DNA of 64,000 nucleotides from Candidatus Scalindua japonica (GTDB lineage: Bacteria > Planctomycetota > Brocadiia > Brocadiales > Scalinduaceae): assembly GCF_002443295.1 (NCBI RefSeq), contig NZ_BAOS01000028.1:62001-126000 (forward strand). The letters are read 5' to 3'. The notes under the pieces were generated by a model that was not told the DNA's origin, searched no databases, and saw only the letters and a program-made list of their open reading frames with translations. A program made the position numbers and the translations under genes. This document shows positions 33,009-41,754 of the stretch, in pieces (the first letter of the stretch is position 1; each line of letters begins with the position of its first letter).

Positions 33009-34202
33009 TTATACTTTAATCTCATTGACTACATATTCAAACTCTTCGTCTGTCATCTCCGCATAAAGTGGTAAGGTAATACTCAATCTATCTGCCGCAT
33101 ATGAATATATATAATCTTCATCACTGAAATTATAATTCTTTTTATAATATCCCAGGGTATGCACTGCATGTGTGCCCTGTCTTGTAGAAATACCTCTTTC
33201 TTCCAATCTTTCCATAAGTGTATTTCTTTTTATGTTTAATCTATCAATTTTTTCTATACTAAGACTGGATATATCTTCGTCATTCGTGAATGTACAAACG
33301 TATGACTGATACCCGTGTACAAATCCTTCGGGAACATAGGGTGTGATTAAACATTCAACATCTTTCAACGATTCGTCATACCTTTTTGCTATTTCTCTCC
33401 GCTTATTCAAGATGTAATTAGCCTTTTTCATCTGACTGACACCAAGAGCCCCCTGGAAGTCTGTCATTCTGTAATTGTATCCTTTTGTATTAAATTCAGG
33501 GAGCAATGAACCCCCTTTTTCCTTATCTCTCTGTAAATCTGTTTTGCTGGCGCCATGGTCTCTCAATGAAGTAACTTTATAGGAGTTCTCTTCGTTATCT
33601 GTTATAATCATTCCACCTTCACCTGTGGTAATACTCTTTCTTGGATGAAACGAAAAACATCCTGCATTGCCGAAAGTTCCGGAGTGTTGATTTCCTATCC
33701 ACGCACCCAAACCACATGCAGAGTCCTCTATTACTTTCAGTCTATACGTTTTAGCCAATTCCATAATTTTTGACATATCCGCGCATAGACCAAAAAGATG
33801 AACCGGCATAATTGCATTTATTTCTCTATTCACATCATTTTCTAAAAGTTCTTTTGCCTTGTTAACGTCAATATTAAATGTCTTAATGTCTATATCACAC
33901 AGAACAACCTTGGCCCCTGTATATTCTACAGCATTAGCTGAAGCAACGTAGGTAAAGGAGGGAACAATAACTTTATCGCCAGCTTTTATTCCTGATACAT
34001 CCAAGGCTAAATGTAAAGCGGTTGTACAGTTTGACACAGCCTTCGCAAATCCAGCGCCCGTAAATTCGGCAAATGACTTCTCAAACTCTGCAACAAATGG
34101 CCCCTGAACTATCCAACCCGTCTCAAATGGTTTTACTATAGCCTCTTTTTCCGATTCATCAAAAACAGGTTTTGTAATAGGTATTTTTCTGTACTCAATC
34201 AT
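33009..34202 (-). CDS. DegT/DnrJ/EryC1 aminotransferase
   Basis: A PLP-dependent sugar aminotransferase of 397 residues. ITKPVFDESEKEAIVKPFET starts the fold; VIEDSACGLGAWIG holds the PLP Asp, and CFSFHPRKSITTGEGGMI the Schiff-base lysine (near residue 187, HPRKS rather than FPSKN). This pattern matches the ArnB/perosamine-synthase (4-amino sugar) branch, unlike the WbpE-like enzymes at 11034 and 35056. The ATG overlaps the radical SAM stop by 4 bases. It probably makes a 4-amino-4-deoxy sugar for the surface glycan (inference). Confidence 0.9.
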   Translation of the reverse strand: MIEYRKIPITKPVFDESEKEAIVKPFETGWIVQGPFVAEFEKSFAEFTGAGFAKAVSNCTTALHLALDVSGIKAGDKVIVPSFTYVASANAVEYTGAKVVLCDIDIKTFNIDVNKAKELLENDVNREINAIMPVHLFGLCADMSKIMELAKTYRLKVIEDSACGLGAWIGNQHSGTFGNAGCFSFHPRKSITTGEGGMIITDNEENSYKVTSLRDHGASKTDLQRDKEKGGSLLPEFNTKGYNYRMTDFQGALGVSQMKKANYILNKRREIAKRYDESLKDVECLITPYVPEGFVHGYQSYVCTFTNDEDISSLSIEKIDRLNIKRNTLMERLEERGISTRQGTHAVHTLGYYKKNYNFSDEDYIYSYAADRLSITLPLYAEMTDEEFEYVVNEIKV

Positions 34203-35059
34203 TCTGCATCTACCCTATTTATTTCTCCGTATATTTTATGCTCTATTTCACCATCTACCAGACACCAGGATTCACCGCACGTATGACCGGTCCATTGATC
34301 ACATGGTCCGCAGTCTTCGTCGGGATAGTTTTCACGAATTTCTCGAATACGTTCTGAGTTCCAAATATCCTTAATACTCATATCATGGAAATTCATTTTT
34401 TTCTCTGTTTCCCAAATATGATTACAACGGGATATGGATCCATCGTAGGCAATTACTAAGGTATCATTCAGCTTTGGACAAAAAGTACGTGGAATTTCAT
34501 ATGAACTTCCGGATTTCCCAAATATTCCATCTTTTGTATGTTCCTCATAGAGTCTTACACTGTCAAATCCATCTAAGTCTGAGCTGTTTATTACCGTTTG
34601 AAGCATTGTTTCGGAATCCTCACCTTTAACAAAGGAGACTTGTACAATCGGCTTATCATTCTCTTTTAATAAAAGAAAATTTTTTGCGTTTTTATATCCT
34701 ATCCGGGTGTGTATGCTAAATGTCACAAATTCACAGCAGGCTAATGTTTCGGCAAATTCCCCGGTAACGAGGTTGCCATTAGTAGAAATATGTATTCTCA
34801 ATGATTTATTTAATGCATACTGTATTAGCTCTATAAAATCCGGGTGAAGTAGTGACTCCCCTCGCCAAAATGGCAAAATTATCGTGTCCGGCTCAGCCTT
34901 CGCAATATCGTCAATTAGACGTTTCCACAAACTCTTGCTCATATAACCGTCAGTAGTCTCAATATAATTCCGTGGACACATGGAGCAGGATAAATTGCAT
35001 TGTGGAGTCAGCTCTATAACTATTCTATGTGGGTAATCTAATATTTTGGGACTTTTCAT
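34199..35059 (-). CDS. Radical SAM protein with SPASM-like C-terminus
   Basis: A 286-residue radical SAM enzyme. The [4Fe-4S]-SAM cluster cysteines are C21, C25 and C28 in CNLSCSMC. The barrel follows (PFWRGESLLHPDFIELIQYA, HISTNGNLV), then a C-terminal cysteine-rich region (TFCPKLNDTL, SISRCNHIW, DEDCGPCDQWTGHTCGESWC) that should bind one or two extra Fe-S clusters as in SPASM/twitch enzymes. It is coupled to its neighbours on both sides by 4-base overlaps. Its substrate is unknown; the setting between two sugar aminotransferases suggests a sugar or amino-sugar dehydrogenation, epimerisation or dehydration. Confidence 0.87.
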   Translation of the reverse strand: MKSPKILDYPHRIVIELTPQCNLSCSMCPRNYIETTDGYMSKSLWKRLIDDIAKAEPDTIILPFWRGESLLHPDFIELIQYALNKSLRIHISTNGNLVTGEFAETLACCEFVTFSIHTRIGYKNAKNFLLLKENDKPIVQVSFVKGEDSETMLQTVINSSDLDGFDSVRLYEEHTKDGIFGKSGSSYEIPRTFCPKLNDTLVIAYDGSISRCNHIWETEKKMNFHDMSIKDIWNSERIREIRENYPDEDCGPCDQWTGHTCGESWCLVDGEIEHKIYGEINRVDAE

Positions 35060-36663
35060 CGTCCTTGCTTAGTAAAGAAATCCTTAATTTTAGCGGTTAT
35101 AAACATCGTATCTTTTTCTTCTTGTAACGGTTCAATTGGCAAACTCATTACATCATTCACCACTTGATCGGATACTCCTAATTCCCCTATTTCTCTACTT
35201 CTATTCCCAAATACCTTCATTTTGTGAAGTGGAACAGGATAATAGATCATTGTACAAATACCCTCTTCTTTCAGATATTTTTGGAGTTCATCCCTCTTCC
35301 CATTTTTAACATTAATAGTATATTGATGGTAAACATGACCGTTTGGAATAGTTGATGTCGAGTCGTTTAGATGTCGTACATTATTTACGGGAATAGTTAT
35401 TTCTTCAATACCTGAAAGTTCTTGATTGTATATCTCCGCAATTTTCTGCCTTCGTTCGTTGAATTCGTCAATATTTTTAAATTTTGCCAGAAGGATCGCA
35501 GCATGAAGGGTGTCTAGCCTCGCGTTGTATCCAATATGGTCGACATTATATTTATCCTTCCCGCCATGCTTAAGCAGCATTCGAATGAGACCTGATGTTT
35601 GATCGTCATTGGTTGAAATCATTCCACCGTCTCCAAATCCACCAAGGTTCTTGGAAGGGAAAAAACTGAATGTCCCTGCGTCACCTATTGAGCCAAGCTT
35701 TTTGCCATTCCACGTCCCGCCAAAAGCCTGCGCCACATCTTCAACAACAAACAGATTATGTTCTTTGGCGATGTTCATAATCTCATCCATTTCACAAGAT
35801 TGTCCGTAAAGGTGGACTGGTAGAATACCGACTATTTTAGATTTCTGATCCTGGCTTTTCGATTTAAAAAGTTTCCTGACCTTTTTTTCGTCAAGATTAT
35901 AAGTTGTGGGAGAAATGTCGACAAAGACGGGAGTCGCGCCAGAACGCAAAATGGCATCGCCAGTAGCAGTAAAGGTGAAAGGTGTTGTGATAATTCTGTC
36001 CGATCTGTCGAAATATTCCTCTCCTTTTAGTTTTATGGCAAGCGCCCTTAATGATAGCACCAAAGCGTCTGTGCCGGAGGAAACACCAATGCAATGTTTT
36101 ACTCCAATGTATGCAGCAACTTTTTGTTCGAGTTCTTTTACCTGCGGGCCAAGGATATATTTTGTTTCGGCAACGGTGTTCAATATTGCATGGTCAATAT
36201 CTTCAAGCATGTAACGATATTCTGCCTGAAGGTCGAGCATGGGGATTTGTAAATTCTTTTTGGAAGTACGATCTTCTAGAAATGGTAGTAATTTGTCAGG
36301 TGTATAAACAGAAAGTCCAAACGATTCAAAGCTACTATCCTTGGTTACTATTACTCCACGGGGACAAATTCTTTTGAAAGAAAGGGCTATAAGGGCATCT
36401 TCCCCATCCGTAAATCCTATTGCATCCCCCCCTTCTTTTCCTGTTGATGTAATAACTTTAAAACTACCAAGAAAAATCTCTTTAAATTTATCCTTATTGG
36501 TTTTATGTTTTTTGAGAAAATAATCGAGTGTTGGTATCATTGACGCAGTAATATAAAGCTCTTTGCCAAGATCAATAAGTTTTTCTATAACAACTATACT
36601 TTTAATGTCTCGCTTAAAAATTGCATCCAGCAGGATATTTACATCTATCAAAAAGCTATCCAT
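35056..36663 (-). CDS. PIN nuclease domain fused to WbpE-type aminotransferase
   Basis: A 535-residue chimera. Residues 1-130 form a PIN domain, the fold of VapC ribonuclease toxins, with acidic residues D7 (FLIDVN), D86/E88/D89 (TDGEDALIAL) and D109 (IVTKDSSF) placed as in active enzymes. After an 8-residue linker, residues 139-535 form a full DegT/WbpE aminotransferase: IPMLDLQAEYR, ILGPQVKELEQK, VSSGTDALVL, D308 in VVEDVAQAFG and Schiff-base K337 in FFPSKNLGGFGDGG. There is no stop or frameshift between them. M142 has only a weak AAAGAA upstream, so separate synthesis of the second half is possible but not favoured. It overlaps the antitoxin-like gene by 8 bases and the radical SAM gene by 4. 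The aminotransferase probably makes UDP-GlcNAc3NA. Confidence 0.85.
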   Translation of the reverse strand: MDSFLIDVNILLDAIFKRDIKSIVVIEKLIDLGKELYITASMIPTLDYFLKKHKTNKDKFKEIFLGSFKVITSTGKEGGDAIGFTDGEDALIALSFKRICPRGVIVTKDSSFESFGLSVYTPDKLLPFLEDRTSKKNLQIPMLDLQAEYRYMLEDIDHAILNTVAETKYILGPQVKELEQKVAAYIGVKHCIGVSSGTDALVLSLRALAIKLKGEEYFDRSDRIITTPFTFTATGDAILRSGATPVFVDISPTTYNLDEKKVRKLFKSKSQDQKSKIVGILPVHLYGQSCEMDEIMNIAKEHNLFVVEDVAQAFGGTWNGKKLGSIGDAGTFSFFPSKNLGGFGDGGMISTNDDQTSGLIRMLLKHGGKDKYNVDHIGYNARLDTLHAAILLAKFKNIDEFNERRQKIAEIYNQELSGIEEITIPVNNVRHLNDSTSTIPNGHVYHQYTINVKNGKRDELQKYLKEEGICTMIYYPVPLHKMKVFGNRSREIGELGVSDQVVNDVMSLPIEPLQEEKDTMFITAKIKDFFTKQGR

Positions 36664-36886: not shown

Positions 36887-38467
36887 TTAATTGACCTCCA
36901 ACTTGTTCCCTTTTAATGAATATTTATCTCCACAATACCCACAAACTGTGCGTTCATCATTAAACTTCAGGGTTGTTCCGCATTTACACACCCACCCAAT
37001 TTGTTTTGCGGGAACACCTGCAACTACAGCATAATCTGCCACATCGCATTTTACCACAGAACCTGCACCTATAAGAGAGTATTTGCCTATTGTTACTCCA
37101 CATACAATTGTCGCATTGGCTCCAATAGTGGCCCCTCTCTTAACAAGTGTTTCCATGAATTCATGTTTTCTTTCTACAAAGGCTCTTGGGTTATATACAT
37201 TTGTAAACACACAGGATGGGCCACAAAAAACCCCATCTTCCAGTGTCACCCCTTTATATATTGAAACATTATTCTGTACTTTACACTTATCACCGATGGT
37301 TACTTCGGGGCCGATTAATACATTTTGTCCAATTGTACACTTCTCTCCTATCTTAGAATCTCTTAAAATATGAGAGAAGTGCCAAATCTGTGTGTTCGCA
37401 CCTATATCACACCCGTTGTCAACATAAGACGACTCATGTATGAAATGTTTTTCTGTTGCCGGTTTTCGTAATTTACCATCTTTATCCAGAATAATTTTTT
37501 CACCATTCTTACTTAAAGATTTTTGAGATATCTGAAGAACCCGAAGAACTCTCAGGCCTTCATTTCCATCTGTTTTAGGGATCTGGTTTTCTTCAATGCA
37601 CTTAAGAAAATGTTTACACTCGGTTTTTAGAGGCTCATCGCTTCCGATAGACACAACTTCTGCCTCTGCTTTGCATGCCACTGGCAAACGGTCTACCCAG
37701 TCAATTCTATGGGGAAATAGAGACAATTTTTCTGTGCTTACATCATCAAAGACCGCCATTTTCTTATCACCTACAACCACCAGCTTTTGCTCTTTAAAAG
37801 GGTGCAGCCAGCTTACAAATATATGCGCTTTTACTCCACTTCTGAAATCCATTGTGGTCATAGTTACATCAGAGATTTGCTTTTGTAAGTAGTTGCCGCC
37901 TGTAGAATATACGGTTTCCGGAAGCTCATTTTGAAGAAGAAGAAGGATTACCGATATGTCGTGGGGAGCAAAACTCCAGAGTATATTTTCTTCAGAACGG
38001 ATTTTACCCATGTTCAATCTGTTAGAATAGATATATTGGATTTTCCCCAGTTCACCCCTATCAATAAGTTCCTTCAGTTTTTGAATAGCAGGGTGATAAT
38101 GGAGAATATGGCCTACCATTAAGATAAGCCCTTGTTGATTTGCAAGGCTAATCAACTCCTCTCCCTGCTCAAGTTGAAGAGCAAGAGGTTTCTCTACAAA
38201 GACGTGTTTTTTATGACGTATAGCCTTTTTGGCCATTTGGTAATGATATTCAGCTGGAGTGGCAATGACTATGGCCTCAATTGATGGATCGCTTAGTAAA
38301 GCATCAAATGAATTAGTAAATTTTATACCGGGAAACTGTGATTCGTAACTATTGACCAAATCTATATCAGCATCACATATTGTGCGAAGGGCATTTAGTT
38401 CATAAAAATTTCTCACCAGATTCTTGCCCCAATATCCAGCACCTACAACTGCAATATTTTTTTTCAT
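36887..38467 (-). CDS. WbpB-like dehydrogenase fused to WbpD-like N-acetyltransferase
   Basis: A 526-residue fusion. Residues 1-320 are a Gfo/Idh/MocA NAD(P) oxidoreductase (VVGAGYWGKNLVRNF; HVFVEKPLAL). Residues about 340-490 are a left-handed beta-helix acetyltransferase with hexapeptide repeats (IGANTQIWHF, IGEKCTIGQNVLIGPEVTIG, IGKYSLIGAGSVV). The last 35 residues have CKCGTTLKF...CGYCGDKY, a zinc-ribbon-like end. WbpB oxidises C3 of UDP-GlcNAcA and WbpD acetylates the 3-amino group after WbpE has acted; the WbpE step is the fusion gene two positions downstream. Together they give UDP-2,3-diacetamido-glucuronate. The gene follows the regulator and precedes the antitoxin-like gene without a gap. 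Confidence 0.9.
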   Translation of the reverse strand: MKKNIAVVGAGYWGKNLVRNFYELNALRTICDADIDLVNSYESQFPGIKFTNSFDALLSDPSIEAIVIATPAEYHYQMAKKAIRHKKHVFVEKPLALQLEQGEELISLANQQGLILMVGHILHYHPAIQKLKELIDRGELGKIQYIYSNRLNMGKIRSEENILWSFAPHDISVILLLLQNELPETVYSTGGNYLQKQISDVTMTTMDFRSGVKAHIFVSWLHPFKEQKLVVVGDKKMAVFDDVSTEKLSLFPHRIDWVDRLPVACKAEAEVVSIGSDEPLKTECKHFLKCIEENQIPKTDGNEGLRVLRVLQISQKSLSKNGEKIILDKDGKLRKPATEKHFIHESSYVDNGCDIGANTQIWHFSHILRDSKIGEKCTIGQNVLIGPEVTIGDKCKVQNNVSIYKGVTLEDGVFCGPSCVFTNVYNPRAFVERKHEFMETLVKRGATIGANATIVCGVTIGKYSLIGAGSVVKCDVADYAVVAGVPAKQIGWVCKCGTTLKFNDERTVCGYCGDKYSLKGNKLEVN

Positions 38468-38651: not shown

Positions 38652-39233
38652 TTATTCTCTAAGTGCAACAATCTTTATATTTTTTTGTTCTTGGTAAAAA
38701 TTGTCAATTTCTTTCTTATCAAAAGAAGCAAGGATTAATACGCTCGTATTGGATTTTATATACTCGTCCATACCAATTACCTTATAACCAAACCACTCTT
38801 CTTCTTTTCTCTTTTCATCAACTACGAAAACGATTTCCAAGTCCAGTTCTTTTAACACAATGAACAGAACTTCTGCAATATGGTTTATTCCGTATATTGA
38901 AAGATCTTTTACACCTTCATTTTTTAAGTGTATAACTTTATCTCTAATTACCTTTTTAGCTTCCAGATAGAAGTGAATCGTACTTTCTACTCTATTGTAT
39001 AATAAGGACGACTTCTCTCTGGCACCTTCCGGAGTAATTAAATATCTGATTTTCTTAGCATCAATATTTTTTATTTTTATCCACCCTTTTTTGACCATCT
39101 TTTTTAAGAGATGATTCACCAGTCCCAGGGCAATACCAACTTCTTTGGATAGCTCCCGTTGCGTTAGATGAGCGTTATTTTCCAGCCTTTCCAGGATATC
39201 CAACTCTCTTGTACCTTCTCTCATTATTATCAC
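38652..39233 (-). CDS. Winged-helix regulator of the polysaccharide island (EPS-associated MarR-like)
   Basis: A 193-residue DNA-binding protein. The winged helix-turn-helix is at residues 8-75 (LERLENNAHLTQRELSKEVG, LGLVNHLLKKMVKKGWIKI), matching EPS-associated MarR-type regulators. Residues about 105-193 add a Rossmann-like half-domain (VKDLSIYGINHIAEVLFIVL, EIVFVVDEKR, VLILASFDKKEIDNF), similar to the nucleotide-sugar-sensing end of sugar acyltransferases; it may bind a ligand. It is the first gene of the minus-strand island. Palindromes upstream of its start are likely autoregulatory operators. Confidence 0.8.
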   Translation of the reverse strand: MIIMREGTRELDILERLENNAHLTQRELSKEVGIALGLVNHLLKKMVKKGWIKIKNIDAKKIRYLITPEGAREKSSLLYNRVESTIHFYLEAKKVIRDKVIHLKNEGVKDLSIYGINHIAEVLFIVLKELDLEIVFVVDEKRKEEEWFGYKVIGMDEYIKSNTSVLILASFDKKEIDNFYQEQKNIKIVALRE

Positions 39234-39270
39234 CTTAGTTGATGCGGATCAGATATGGCTTCGCTGAAAG

Positions 39271-39333
39271 GAACAGCGATGGGCTGTTCATAGAATGAAC
39301 AAGATTGTTAAAAAAACGTTCATCAAGTGAACG
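39271..39333 (-). promoter_or_regulatory. Array of GTTC/GAAC palindromes upstream of the regulator
   Basis: Three overlapping or adjacent inverted repeats share the GTTC/GAAC half-site: GAACAGC-GATGG-GCTGTTC (39271-39289), GTTCAT-AGA-ATGAAC (39286-39300) and CGTTCA-TCAAG-TGAACG (39317-39333). They start 38 bases upstream of the regulator ATG, where its promoter should be. Dimeric winged-helix proteins bind such sites, so autoregulation is likely (inference). Confidence 0.6.
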
Positions 39334-39343
39334 ATTATTCAAT

Positions 39344-39371
39344 AAAAAAGTTATTTGTCAATAACTTTTTT
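39344..39371 (-). terminator. Intrinsic terminator of the ArnT-like gene
   Basis: AAAAAAGTTATT-TGTC-AATAACTTTTTT is a perfect 12-bp stem with a 4-base loop and a U-run on either strand. It separates the ArnT-like gene (minus, ending 39413) from the regulator of the polysaccharide island. Confidence 0.75.
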
Positions 39372-39412: not shown

Positions 39413-41146
39413 TCAATATAGCACTTTGTATAAAAATATACTATGCCTGTTTAAATGTTTTTCCTCTGGATATTTGTATGCTAACTCAATTTTATTATTC
39501 TTTATAGATTGCTTCAACTCTGTTTCTATTGCATTGTATTCTCTTTGCGTAAGCAATATATAATCTACTTTCTTCTCTTTTGCCAATGAAAGTGTGTTAT
39601 TAATATTTCCTATCTGAATGTGCCCGCCTCCGGCATAATAAGCATTTCTTACAGAAGTACTGACAATCAGAGGAGATGGTTTATGGGAATTCCCCTTTAC
39701 CCATTGACCAGCATTTTTAATCCCTAATTTATCAAAGCGTTGAGGTTTTAATGTTTTTGGCAGTAAGACACTGATAACAATCATCAATACAATTAGCTGC
39801 ATTATCCATACGCTCTTAAGTAACTCTTTGAAGCCAGCTATCATACTGTTACTCTGATATTTTTTTTGCACCCAGATTCCAGTAGCATACACTCCTATTC
39901 CCACACAAATGATAGCTGGAATAACTATTGGCATTAAATGTCTTCTGCTGGGATACTGATAAATATTATTATACACTGCAATATTAACGATATTTAACCT
40001 GTACAATACAACCAAATAGAATGCAATTACTGATGCCAGGTAAAGCCCAAAGAATTGTGCCTTCTTAATTCTGGACCAATTAATTACACCGATTATAAAG
40101 AAAATAAATAAAAATGGATGAAACGTACTTATGTATTTTGTTAATACATATGATAAGCTTTCAAGATAGGTTTTAAGAGAAAGTCTTTTAGATGGTTTTT
40201 TTACGAGTTTAACATTTGCAAGTGTTTTTTTTTCAGTACCGGGCTTCTTATATTCAACATCCTTTGATATCTTGTTTGTGTTCATTTTGTTGACAGCAGT
40301 TTGTTTTTTTTTAGTATCTACACCAGATGTTGAATTGCCTGTGTTTTTGTTGATCAATACGTCTCCGTTTGGATTTTCCGTAATTGTTACAATATTTTTT
40401 TGAGACAAATTCCTTTTCTTGGTAAGTAGCCACATACCTGTTTCATTTTTAATGTAAATAAGATAGGGTGATGAAAAGACGAGAAATGAAACGGCCAGTA
40501 TTGAGATTGAGGCAAGTTTGTCTTTCCATATTGACCGGACACAATTGATGTCTTTAATGCAACACCAGCCAGCAACAATGATAATAATCCCTATTCCTTC
40601 AGGACGAGTAAGATAGGCAAACGCAGAACATATTCCTGATAGTGCAAATAAATGAAGCTTTTTCTTTGATATCGCAAAATAACCGGAACCAAGTGCAGAT
40701 ATGAAGAAAAAGAAATAAGTAGACTCTGAAATTATGTCTGCGGAAAACCTGACAGCATAAGGATGGAAGGCTAAAATAATAGCAGAAACGAATGATATCT
40801 TGTGGTCAAAAACGCTTTTACCTATAAAATAGAATATAATTACCGTTAATGTGCCAAAAAAAACAGATACAATAGTACCGGACGATTCCATATTTGGAAT
40901 CACCTTGTGTACTGCAGCTATAAAGAGGGAATAGAGTGGGTGGTAATCATGCCTTAGTCCGTTCAGGAAATCACCGTTTGCAAAATATTTTGCAATTTGC
41001 ATAAAAGCGACACTGTCATTTTTAATCACACAGGTAAAAAAGCTCAGATAAATTCTTACCGAAAGTGAAATTGCCAGAAGTGTCCAAAGGTACTTATCAT
41101 TAAAAAAACTTACTTTCCTGTCACTCTCTAAAGTCATGGTTTTCAT
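39413..41146 (-). CDS. ArnT/PMT-like lipid-linked sugar transferase
   Basis: A large inner-membrane protein of the GT-C fold (PMT_2/ArnT-like) with about 11 hydrophobic segments. Such enzymes move a sugar from undecaprenyl phosphate onto lipid A, protein or glycan on the periplasmic side. The first loop has the acidic motif VIKNDSVAFMQIAKYFANGD, and LRHDYHPLYSLFIAAV is the typical second motif. A soluble lysine/threonine-rich insert (KKKQTAVNKMNTNKISKDVE) lies between hydrophobic segments in mid-protein. I chose ATG 41146, which starts two bases after the isomerase stop; an ATG at 41191 would overlap that gene by 43 bases. Confidence 0.85.
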   Translation of the reverse strand: MKTMTLESDRKVSFFNDKYLWTLLAISLSVRIYLSFFTCVIKNDSVAFMQIAKYFANGDFLNGLRHDYHPLYSLFIAAVHKVIPNMESSGTIVSVFFGTLTVIIFYFIGKSVFDHKISFVSAIILAFHPYAVRFSADIISESTYFFFFISALGSGYFAISKKKLHLFALSGICSAFAYLTRPEGIGIIIIVAGWCCIKDINCVRSIWKDKLASISILAVSFLVFSSPYLIYIKNETGMWLLTKKRNLSQKNIVTITENPNGDVLINKNTGNSTSGVDTKKKQTAVNKMNTNKISKDVEYKKPGTEKKTLANVKLVKKPSKRLSLKTYLESLSYVLTKYISTFHPFLFIFFIIGVINWSRIKKAQFFGLYLASVIAFYLVVLYRLNIVNIAVYNNIYQYPSRRHLMPIVIPAIICVGIGVYATGIWVQKKYQSNSMIAGFKELLKSVWIMQLIVLMIVISVLLPKTLKPQRFDKLGIKNAGQWVKGNSHKPSPLIVSTSVRNAYYAGGGHIQIGNINNTLSLAKEKKVDYILLTQREYNAIETELKQSIKNNKIELAYKYPEEKHLNRHSIFLYKVLY

Positions 41147-41148
41147 AA

Positions 41149-41754
41149 TTACACCTGTTTGTCTGATGAAGGAGTGCTGCGTAATATACAATTCAGTATA
41201 GAGTGACAGATAGAGAGGTGGGTTGTTTCAACAGGTTCATATTCTTGTGAAGGGACATAAAAATTATAATAGCCCAAAACGTTTAACGGGTTGTTTTTCT
41301 TAAATCCTGATAATGTTATCACGTTACACTCTCTTGATCTTGCAGCGCAAACACTTTTTAAAATATTTTCTGATTTGCCGGAACTACTAATTGCAATTAG
41401 TATATCACCGTTATCAGCAAACATTTCAATTGGTTTTTCAAAAACATATTTATAACCAAAATCATTGCTGATACATGAAAGAAGTGGCCCCTCGTTGAAA
41501 GTCATCGATCTAATGCCACCATTTTTCCAGTAATCGGTTGTCATATGGCTTGCAATTGCGGCACTCGCACCATTTCCTATAAACATCAATTTGCGATCGG
41601 AATCAGCTTTAAGCCTTATCAAATAACTTACATTTTCAACCACATGGAAAAATTCTATCTCGTTTCCTTCTTTAACGGTAACTTTAATAGAATTGAATAA
41701 TAAAGAGAGTGTCTTATAATAGCTTTGTATAAGTATATATTCTGTTGATACCAT
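41149..41754 (-). CDS. SIS-domain sugar isomerase (GmhA-like)
   Basis: A 201-residue SIS-domain protein like phosphoheptose isomerase GmhA, which converts sedoheptulose 7-phosphate to D-glycero-D-manno-heptose 7-phosphate. The sugar-phosphate loops are present: LMFIGNGASAAIASHMTTDYWKN-type motif (residues 56-78), SCISNDFGYKYVF, and AISSSGKSENILKSV (about 121-135). The C-terminal VETTHLSICHSILNCI has the active-site His. Two bases separate its stop from the ArnT-like start. Other SIS substrates are possible, since no heptose kinase/adenylyltransferase is nearby. Confidence 0.85.
   Translation of the reverse strand: MVSTEYILIQSYYKTLSLLFNSIKVTVKEGNEIEFFHVVENVSYLIRLKADSDRKLMFIGNGASAAIASHMTTDYWKNGGIRSMTFNEGPLLSCISNDFGYKYVFEKPIEMFADNGDILIAISSSGKSENILKSVCAARSRECNVITLSGFKKNNPLNVLGYYNFYVPSQEYEPVETTHLSICHSILNCILRSTPSSDKQV

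Follow-up and report, generated by a model that had tools for sequence, protein, structure and literature searches.

What do the inverted repeats in front of a small regulator gene of Candidatus Scalindua japonica do, and which protein is expected to read them? The question was raised by an earlier note on a 64 kb stretch of this genome (4.8 Mb in total), which was analysed as a whole and is called here the window, with positions counted from its first nucleotide. The note described three overlapping, perfect GTTC/GAAC palindromes upstream of a MarR-like regulator and took them for an autoregulated operator with cooperative binding, possibly responsive to a nucleotide sugar.

Palindromes and genes at the locus

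The regulator gene (38652..39224, minus strand) encodes a protein of 190 aa with a winged helix (HTH_24/MarR, residues ~7-60) and a C-terminal Rossmann-like domain (~104-190). ATG 39222-39224 was accepted as the better start because the Shine-Dalgarno-like sequence AAGGTG (39231..39236, minus strand) lies 6 nt before it and an ortholog (L009) starts at the same place. The distance of 38 bases to the ATG given in the earlier note actually runs to a GTG at 39233, and the nearer conserved site ends 62 bp before ATG 39222-39224. The next gene downstream, 185 bp from the regulator, encodes a Gfo/Idh/MocA oxidoreductase fused to a hexapeptide transferase (36887..38467) and opens a glycan gene set containing a DegT/DnrJ/EryC1 aminotransferase with an N-terminal extension of ~150 aa (35056..36663), a radical SAM/SPASM protein (34199..35059) and one more DegT/DnrJ/EryC1 aminotransferase (33009..34202), all on the minus strand. 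Co-transcription of this next gene with the regulator is presumed, and it would then belong to the target operon. The extension of the first aminotransferase gave no Pfam match at 1e-5 and looks PIN-like by eye. On the other side of the regulator lies a PMT_2 glycosyltransferase-like gene (39413..41191, minus strand); 5 of the 8 listed ortholog loci have a comparable ORF ahead of the regulator. As judged by eye, the upstream order (shikimate gene, nitroreductase, PMT-like gene) is kept in L009, L010, L011, L014 and L015; the downstream content varies over L009-L017, comprising sugar and radical SAM genes, a glycosyltransferase, or small nucleotidyltransferase-like pairs.

All three palindromes are present with the letters described, but only two of them are operator candidates. 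The proximal one, GTTCATAGAATGAAC at 39286..39300, reads GTTCAT-AGA-ATGAAC, is an inverted repeat with arms of 6 bp, makes an exact YGTTCA-N5-TGAACR dyad and has a counterpart in 12 of 13 orthologs. The distal one, GTTCATCAAGTGAAC at 39318..39332, is likewise an exact dyad and has a promoter placement, but it reads GTTCAT-CAA-GTGAAC, so that the perfection ascribed to it holds over 5 bp only (GTTCA/TGAAC). Exact GTTCA-N5-TGAAC occurs in the window at these two positions only, with 0.019 exact GTTCAYNNNRTGAAC sites expected from base composition, while the pattern with two mismatches allowed is at chance level (10 found, 9.26 expected). The third palindrome, GAACAGC-N5-GCTGTTC at 39271..39289, does share the half-site GTTC (39286-39289) with the middle one, as had been noticed. 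It was nevertheless rejected as an operator: perfect inverted repeats with 7-bp arms and loops of 3-11 nt number 89 in the window, and the upstream sequences of orthologs contain no counterpart of it.

Distribution of the site among orthologs and relatives

A genome scan and a search of relatives yielded 12 further non-duplicate ortholog loci (13 with the window), eleven of them at 70-90% identity (one cut by a contig end) and one, L017, at 50% over 138 residues. Absence of the sites upstream of orthologous regulators had been named in advance as the observation that would speak against an operator; 12 of the 13 upstream regions carry one or two GTTC-N7-GAAC dyads, and all of these are GTTCA-N5-TGAAC. 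In the lone miss (L013) the upstream sequence is cut at 159 bp by a contig end, and its first bases resemble the second half-site. Throughout 13 Scalindua-group genomes GTTCAYNNNRTGAAC was found 18 times against 29 for the control pattern, and 15 of the 18 copies are at the regulator locus; the count is therefore ordinary and only the placement is special. No site was found in the four genomes of the group that have no close ortholog (G001, G004, G007 and G012), and in G005 an ortholog is present with its upstream region cut. One ortholog, L009, with 78% identity, together with its operators, comes from G291, a genome with a record titled Alphaproteobacteria; as this genome lies outside the Scalindua genus group, its contig may have been misbinned. 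Downstream of the last operator and ahead of the start codon, the leaders of L012, L013, L014 and L028 have in common a stretch like TTTTGCGTAGC..AAAACGCATAAATTAGC, which varies among the four (with an insert in L012) and is absent from the window.

The genome of the window itself contains GTTCA-N5-TGAAC 8 times, with 7 occurrences of the control pattern, and a genome-wide regulon is unsupported by these numbers. Among the four of these eight sites whose gene context was analysed, two are at the regulator locus, one precedes a short paralog on contig C45 and one (L001) is inside an ORF. The C45 paralog scores 122.9 bits with MarR_EPS, has GTTCATGTATTGAAC 184 bp upstream and precedes ORFs that by eye resemble a glycan cluster. 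The second paralog, on contig C17, has a different recognition helix, no site and neighbours that are not glycan-type genes. Brocadia-type homologs had GTTC-N7-GAAC in 0 of 19 cases within 350 bp, and no other convincing palindrome emerged when 18 of them were scanned for dyads.

More distant relatives were represented by MarR_EPS-type loci from Planctomycetota and from the phylum of G290, the record of which is titled Deltaproteobacteria. From 65 family loci 54 were retained after exclusion of eight that scored <60 with the profile, of L091, which the profile did not hit, and of L098 and L113, which lacked a usable start; a set of 52 was formed by removing also L096 and L097, which duplicate orthologs L017 and L009. 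Perfect GTTCA-N5-TGAAC is present within 300 bp in 21 of these 52 relatives (shuffle mean 0.007), and a dyad scan without any preset pattern ranked the same dyad first, with 21 loci against a shuffle maximum of 4. If the spacer is allowed to vary, GTTCA-N(4-6)-TGAAC between -400 and +45 is perfect in 27 of the 54 relatives (25/52 without ortholog duplicates) and is found in 35/54 with one mismatch; half of this first family sample thus lacks a perfect site, including some regulators with the same helix type. The later sample, drawn after the pattern had been fixed, came from the phylum of G291 and comprised 29 new loci, from which L210-L212 (weak hits) were unused. Among the 26 that were used, a perfect N4 or N5 site was found in 23 (0.037 in shuffles); upstream sequence is lacking for one of the remaining three, and the 29 sites in 80.8 kb all fall within upstream windows. 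Plasmid records, a set with near-duplicates such as L163/L175, L162/L180 and L130/L181, gave a perfect site in 17 of 22 cases and a single-mismatch site in the remaining 5; Rhodobacterales sites have a spacer of 4 and Chelatococcus sites one of 5. In 19 of the 22 records a glycan gene is listed next downstream, two others being beside tet(H) and one at the record end. The pair beside a predicted tet(H), L162 and L180, are Aliarcobacter butzleri plasmids in which the MarR_EPS gene has a one-mismatch site upstream. In L161, L164, L166 and L170 a GCGGTAGCCGTGG-like stretch (GCGGCAGCCATGG in L170) lies between the operator and the start codon and resembles the ops/JUMPstart element; RfaH/NusG-family genes are annotated near L161, L164, L166 and L178. 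Viral contigs contained no confirmed relatives, and phage records gave no match.

Summed over 30 genomes with relatives, there are 93 occurrences of the pattern and 24 of the control. With one locus taken per genome, regulators account for 11 of the 30 sites, 17 are inside ORFs, one (L156) is before a NeuB-family gene and one was left unjudged. The L156 site (1501-1515) is intergenic and represents the one clear non-regulator target among the 30 loci.

Of the 144 half-sites in 72 distinct sites, 140 have a pyrimidine directly before GTTCA, and the fuller half-site is therefore YGTTCA. This regularity bears on the idea that the palindromes work as RNA hairpins in the leader, as an attenuator or processing signal, and not as DNA sites. 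Some copies do lie within the presumed leader, and inverted repeats can fold. However, the half-site retains its letters at any spacer from 4 to 6, its flank is Y/R in nearly all cases, arms of 5 bp would give weak hairpins, and many sites abut the -10 hexamer and would not be wholly transcribed, which makes an RNA element highly improbable.

Among the 40 regulators with a G..N-type recognition helix (SLGKVN, for example), 27 have a perfect site and 34 have one when a single mismatch is allowed; for the 14 with other helices (NVASVN, AGQLAD and others) the numbers are 0 and 1. The Fisher p values of 1e-5 (perfect) and 3e-7 (one mismatch) refer to helix classes drawn by eye after the result was known, whose members are related and phylogenetically non-independent. 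In the later sample L195 (SVGSAH) is without the site and L196, with a G..H helix (GKTH), has it, so that asparagine is not strictly needed.

The site accompanies regulators of different build: some are short (MarR_EPS), some longer by a Rossmann-like domain and some fused to sulfate-activating enzymes. As the site is also found with the short form, which has no Rossmann-like domain, recognition of DNA is assigned to the winged helix alone. At seven loci (L198, L199, L200, L201, L202, L203 and L205) a MarR_EPS-type winged helix starts an ORF of ~690-705 residues, and GTTCA-N4-TGAAC is upstream of all seven. The domains of L198 are PUA_2, ATP-sulfurylase and APS_kinase; L200 and L205 look the same as L198 by eye, and the other four were assigned by length only. 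It is possible that a sulfate-activating enzyme in fused form represses its own gene. The same site before many relatives in at least two phyla, often heading surface-sugar clusters, probably represents a shared self-control switch.

Position of the site relative to promoter-like sequences

Hexamer scoring predicts for the window a -35-like TTGACA (39356..39361, minus strand) and a -10-like AATAAT (39334..39339, minus strand) with a spacer of 16; in most orthologs TTGACA precedes one operator copy. The two window sites start 1 nt (the distal site, 39318-39332) and 3 nt past weak -10-like hexamers, unlike those of orthologs. Among ortholog sites within 500 bp, 16 of 23 start 4 nt downstream of a -10-like hexamer (14 of 23 by stricter scoring), and TTGACA often stands 16-17 bp before that hexamer. 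Sites so placed would overlap the point where transcription begins, in the manner of a repressor site. A promoter score of at least 9 was obtained for 14 of 23 ortholog sites and for 5.6% of random positions, and the corresponding comparison for other relatives gave 16 of 31 sites and 4.2%. The plasmid set had no promoter-score enrichment, with 0 of 18 at a score of at least 8.

Could the regulator bind these sites and activate transcription? MarR-type proteins can do so in some cases, and the second site of the window lies downstream of a weak promoter. Yet a good -10/-35 pair closely precedes the site in orthologs and in the above 16 of 31 cases from other relatives, that is, in a position which normally blocks polymerase. 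Activation is hence improbable.

The proposed cooperativity may be judged from distances. The two conserved sites of the window are 32 bp apart, approximately three helical turns, which would suit a single operator built of overlapping palindromes. Against it, the third palindrome is unconserved, distances between copies elsewhere include 15, 21, 27, 37, 49, 77, 82, 153 and 263 bp, and several orthologs have a promoter-like sequence for each copy, with two promoter-operator units ~77-82 bp apart. Because the spacing extends from 15 to 263 bp with no constant helical phase, cooperative binding and helical phasing were dropped from the interpretation, and one cooperative operator of three palindromes is improbable.

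Of the functional claims made earlier, the autoregulated operator is supported: from genome to genome the site goes with the regulator gene, in most orthologs it overlies the probable start of transcription, and it recurs in other phyla. We estimate at roughly 0.85 the probability that the two conserved dyads are operators of the regulator which they precede, an estimate made from sequence comparison. Autorepression is well supported in silico, and the glycan genes would presumably be repressed too. Most likely a dimer of winged helices grips two inverted YGTTCA half-sites. Bound at YGTTCA-N5-TGAACR, the regulator would cover the start point and block initiation by polymerase, so shutting down its own gene together, presumably, with the glycan genes that follow it. 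Repression might then be lifted by a ligand or partner that works through the C-terminal domain. The whole MarR_EPS-like group would rely on this half-site, the spacer being 4, 5 or 6.

Protein architecture and the possible sensing module

The designation of the protein as MarR-like agrees with the Pfam profile of its winged helix: PF01047 (MarR) gave 25.8 bits (E 9.8e-6), over the cut-off of 24.6, and the HTH_24 match is stronger, 49.2 bits. It thus resembles MarR autorepressors, having a winged helix above the Pfam MarR cut-off and a palindrome at its own promoter. Classical MarR proteins have dimerisation helices on both sides of the winged helix, while the window protein has a Rossmann-like domain after a long helix, and its half-site is GTTCA. 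With MarR_EPS (TIGR04176) it shares the winged-helix type, the genomic setting and the operator that members carry; the EPS or surface-glycan gene cluster typical of this family is represented downstream by the Gfo/Idh-hexapeptide, DegT and radical SAM genes. It differs from the family in scoring 62.3 bits, under the curated cut-off of 88, and in the extra C-terminal domain of ~85 residues.

This C-terminal half models as a Rossmann-like domain, in accord with the added Rossmann-type half-domain proposed before. The mean pLDDT of the structure model is 69, with residues 1-31 mostly <50 and values of 83-88 over residues 91-150, and only the C-terminal half was therefore interpreted. VIA-align places the domain near the N-terminal Rossmann domains of sugar enzymes, which have a similar fold: UDP-QuiNAc 4-dehydrogenase (3nkl, Z 9.9), WbaP (8t53, Z 9.7) and the PerB/PglD type (4eab, Z 8.7). 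It scores equally high with periplasmic binding proteins (3ukj, Z 10.1), and Foldseek gave nothing for it at E ≤0.001. The top entry of the VIA-align list is an unrelated periplasmic binding protein, and the fold therefore says little about the ligand. A search of solved structures by sequence returned winged-helix matches only (best E 0.0064). TIGR03570 (NeuD/PglD) matched the window protein weakly (E 0.007), far below the family cut-off; PF17836 (PglD_N) was not listed for it and was weak (E 0.027) for a relative, L088. The domain could sense a nucleotide or a nucleotide sugar.

The same architecture brings in another regulator as a possible owner of the sites, for instance one of LexA or Rex type, controlling the regulator gene from outside. 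LexA of some groups has boxes that contain GTTC, and the redox repressor Rex likewise combines a winged helix with a C-terminal Rossmann-like domain, which in Rex binds NAD(H). The modelled domain matches Rex chains, among other structures, with Z from 8 to 9.5 (3wg9, for example, Z 9.5 over 85 residues). Nevertheless, no Rex DNA-binding model is among the 14 Pfam families listed for the window protein at E up to 1, and the half-sites of the Rex box, TTGTGAA-N4-TTCACAA, are turned the other way from those found here. The alphaproteobacterial LexA box is a direct repeat. The site, moreover, tracks the regulator family across phyla, with varying neighbours, and goes with the helix type, so that control by a foreign regulator is very improbable.

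An autoregulated MarR-type operator is a known kind of control. What appears new is a code shared across a named, uncharacterised family. A literature search, with most subscription journals outside its range, found no paper on the motif or on MarR_EPS function; PMC10599003 lists a MarR_EPS gene as up-regulated by salt. We give somewhat better than even odds to the broader reading of autorepression by the adjacent regulator, according to which the YGTTCA code, with half-sites 4-6 bp apart, is shared across phyla by self-repressing regulators heading exchangeable surface-glycan clusters, and the sensing part is swapped, being absent, Rossmann-like and possibly nucleotide-sugar-binding, or a sulfate-activating enzyme. 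DNA recognition, which is common, would in this way be separated from the sensing module, which is variable. The shared operator offers a direct test of what MarR_EPS proteins do, and it lets their targets be predicted in any genome, uncultured anammox bacteria included.
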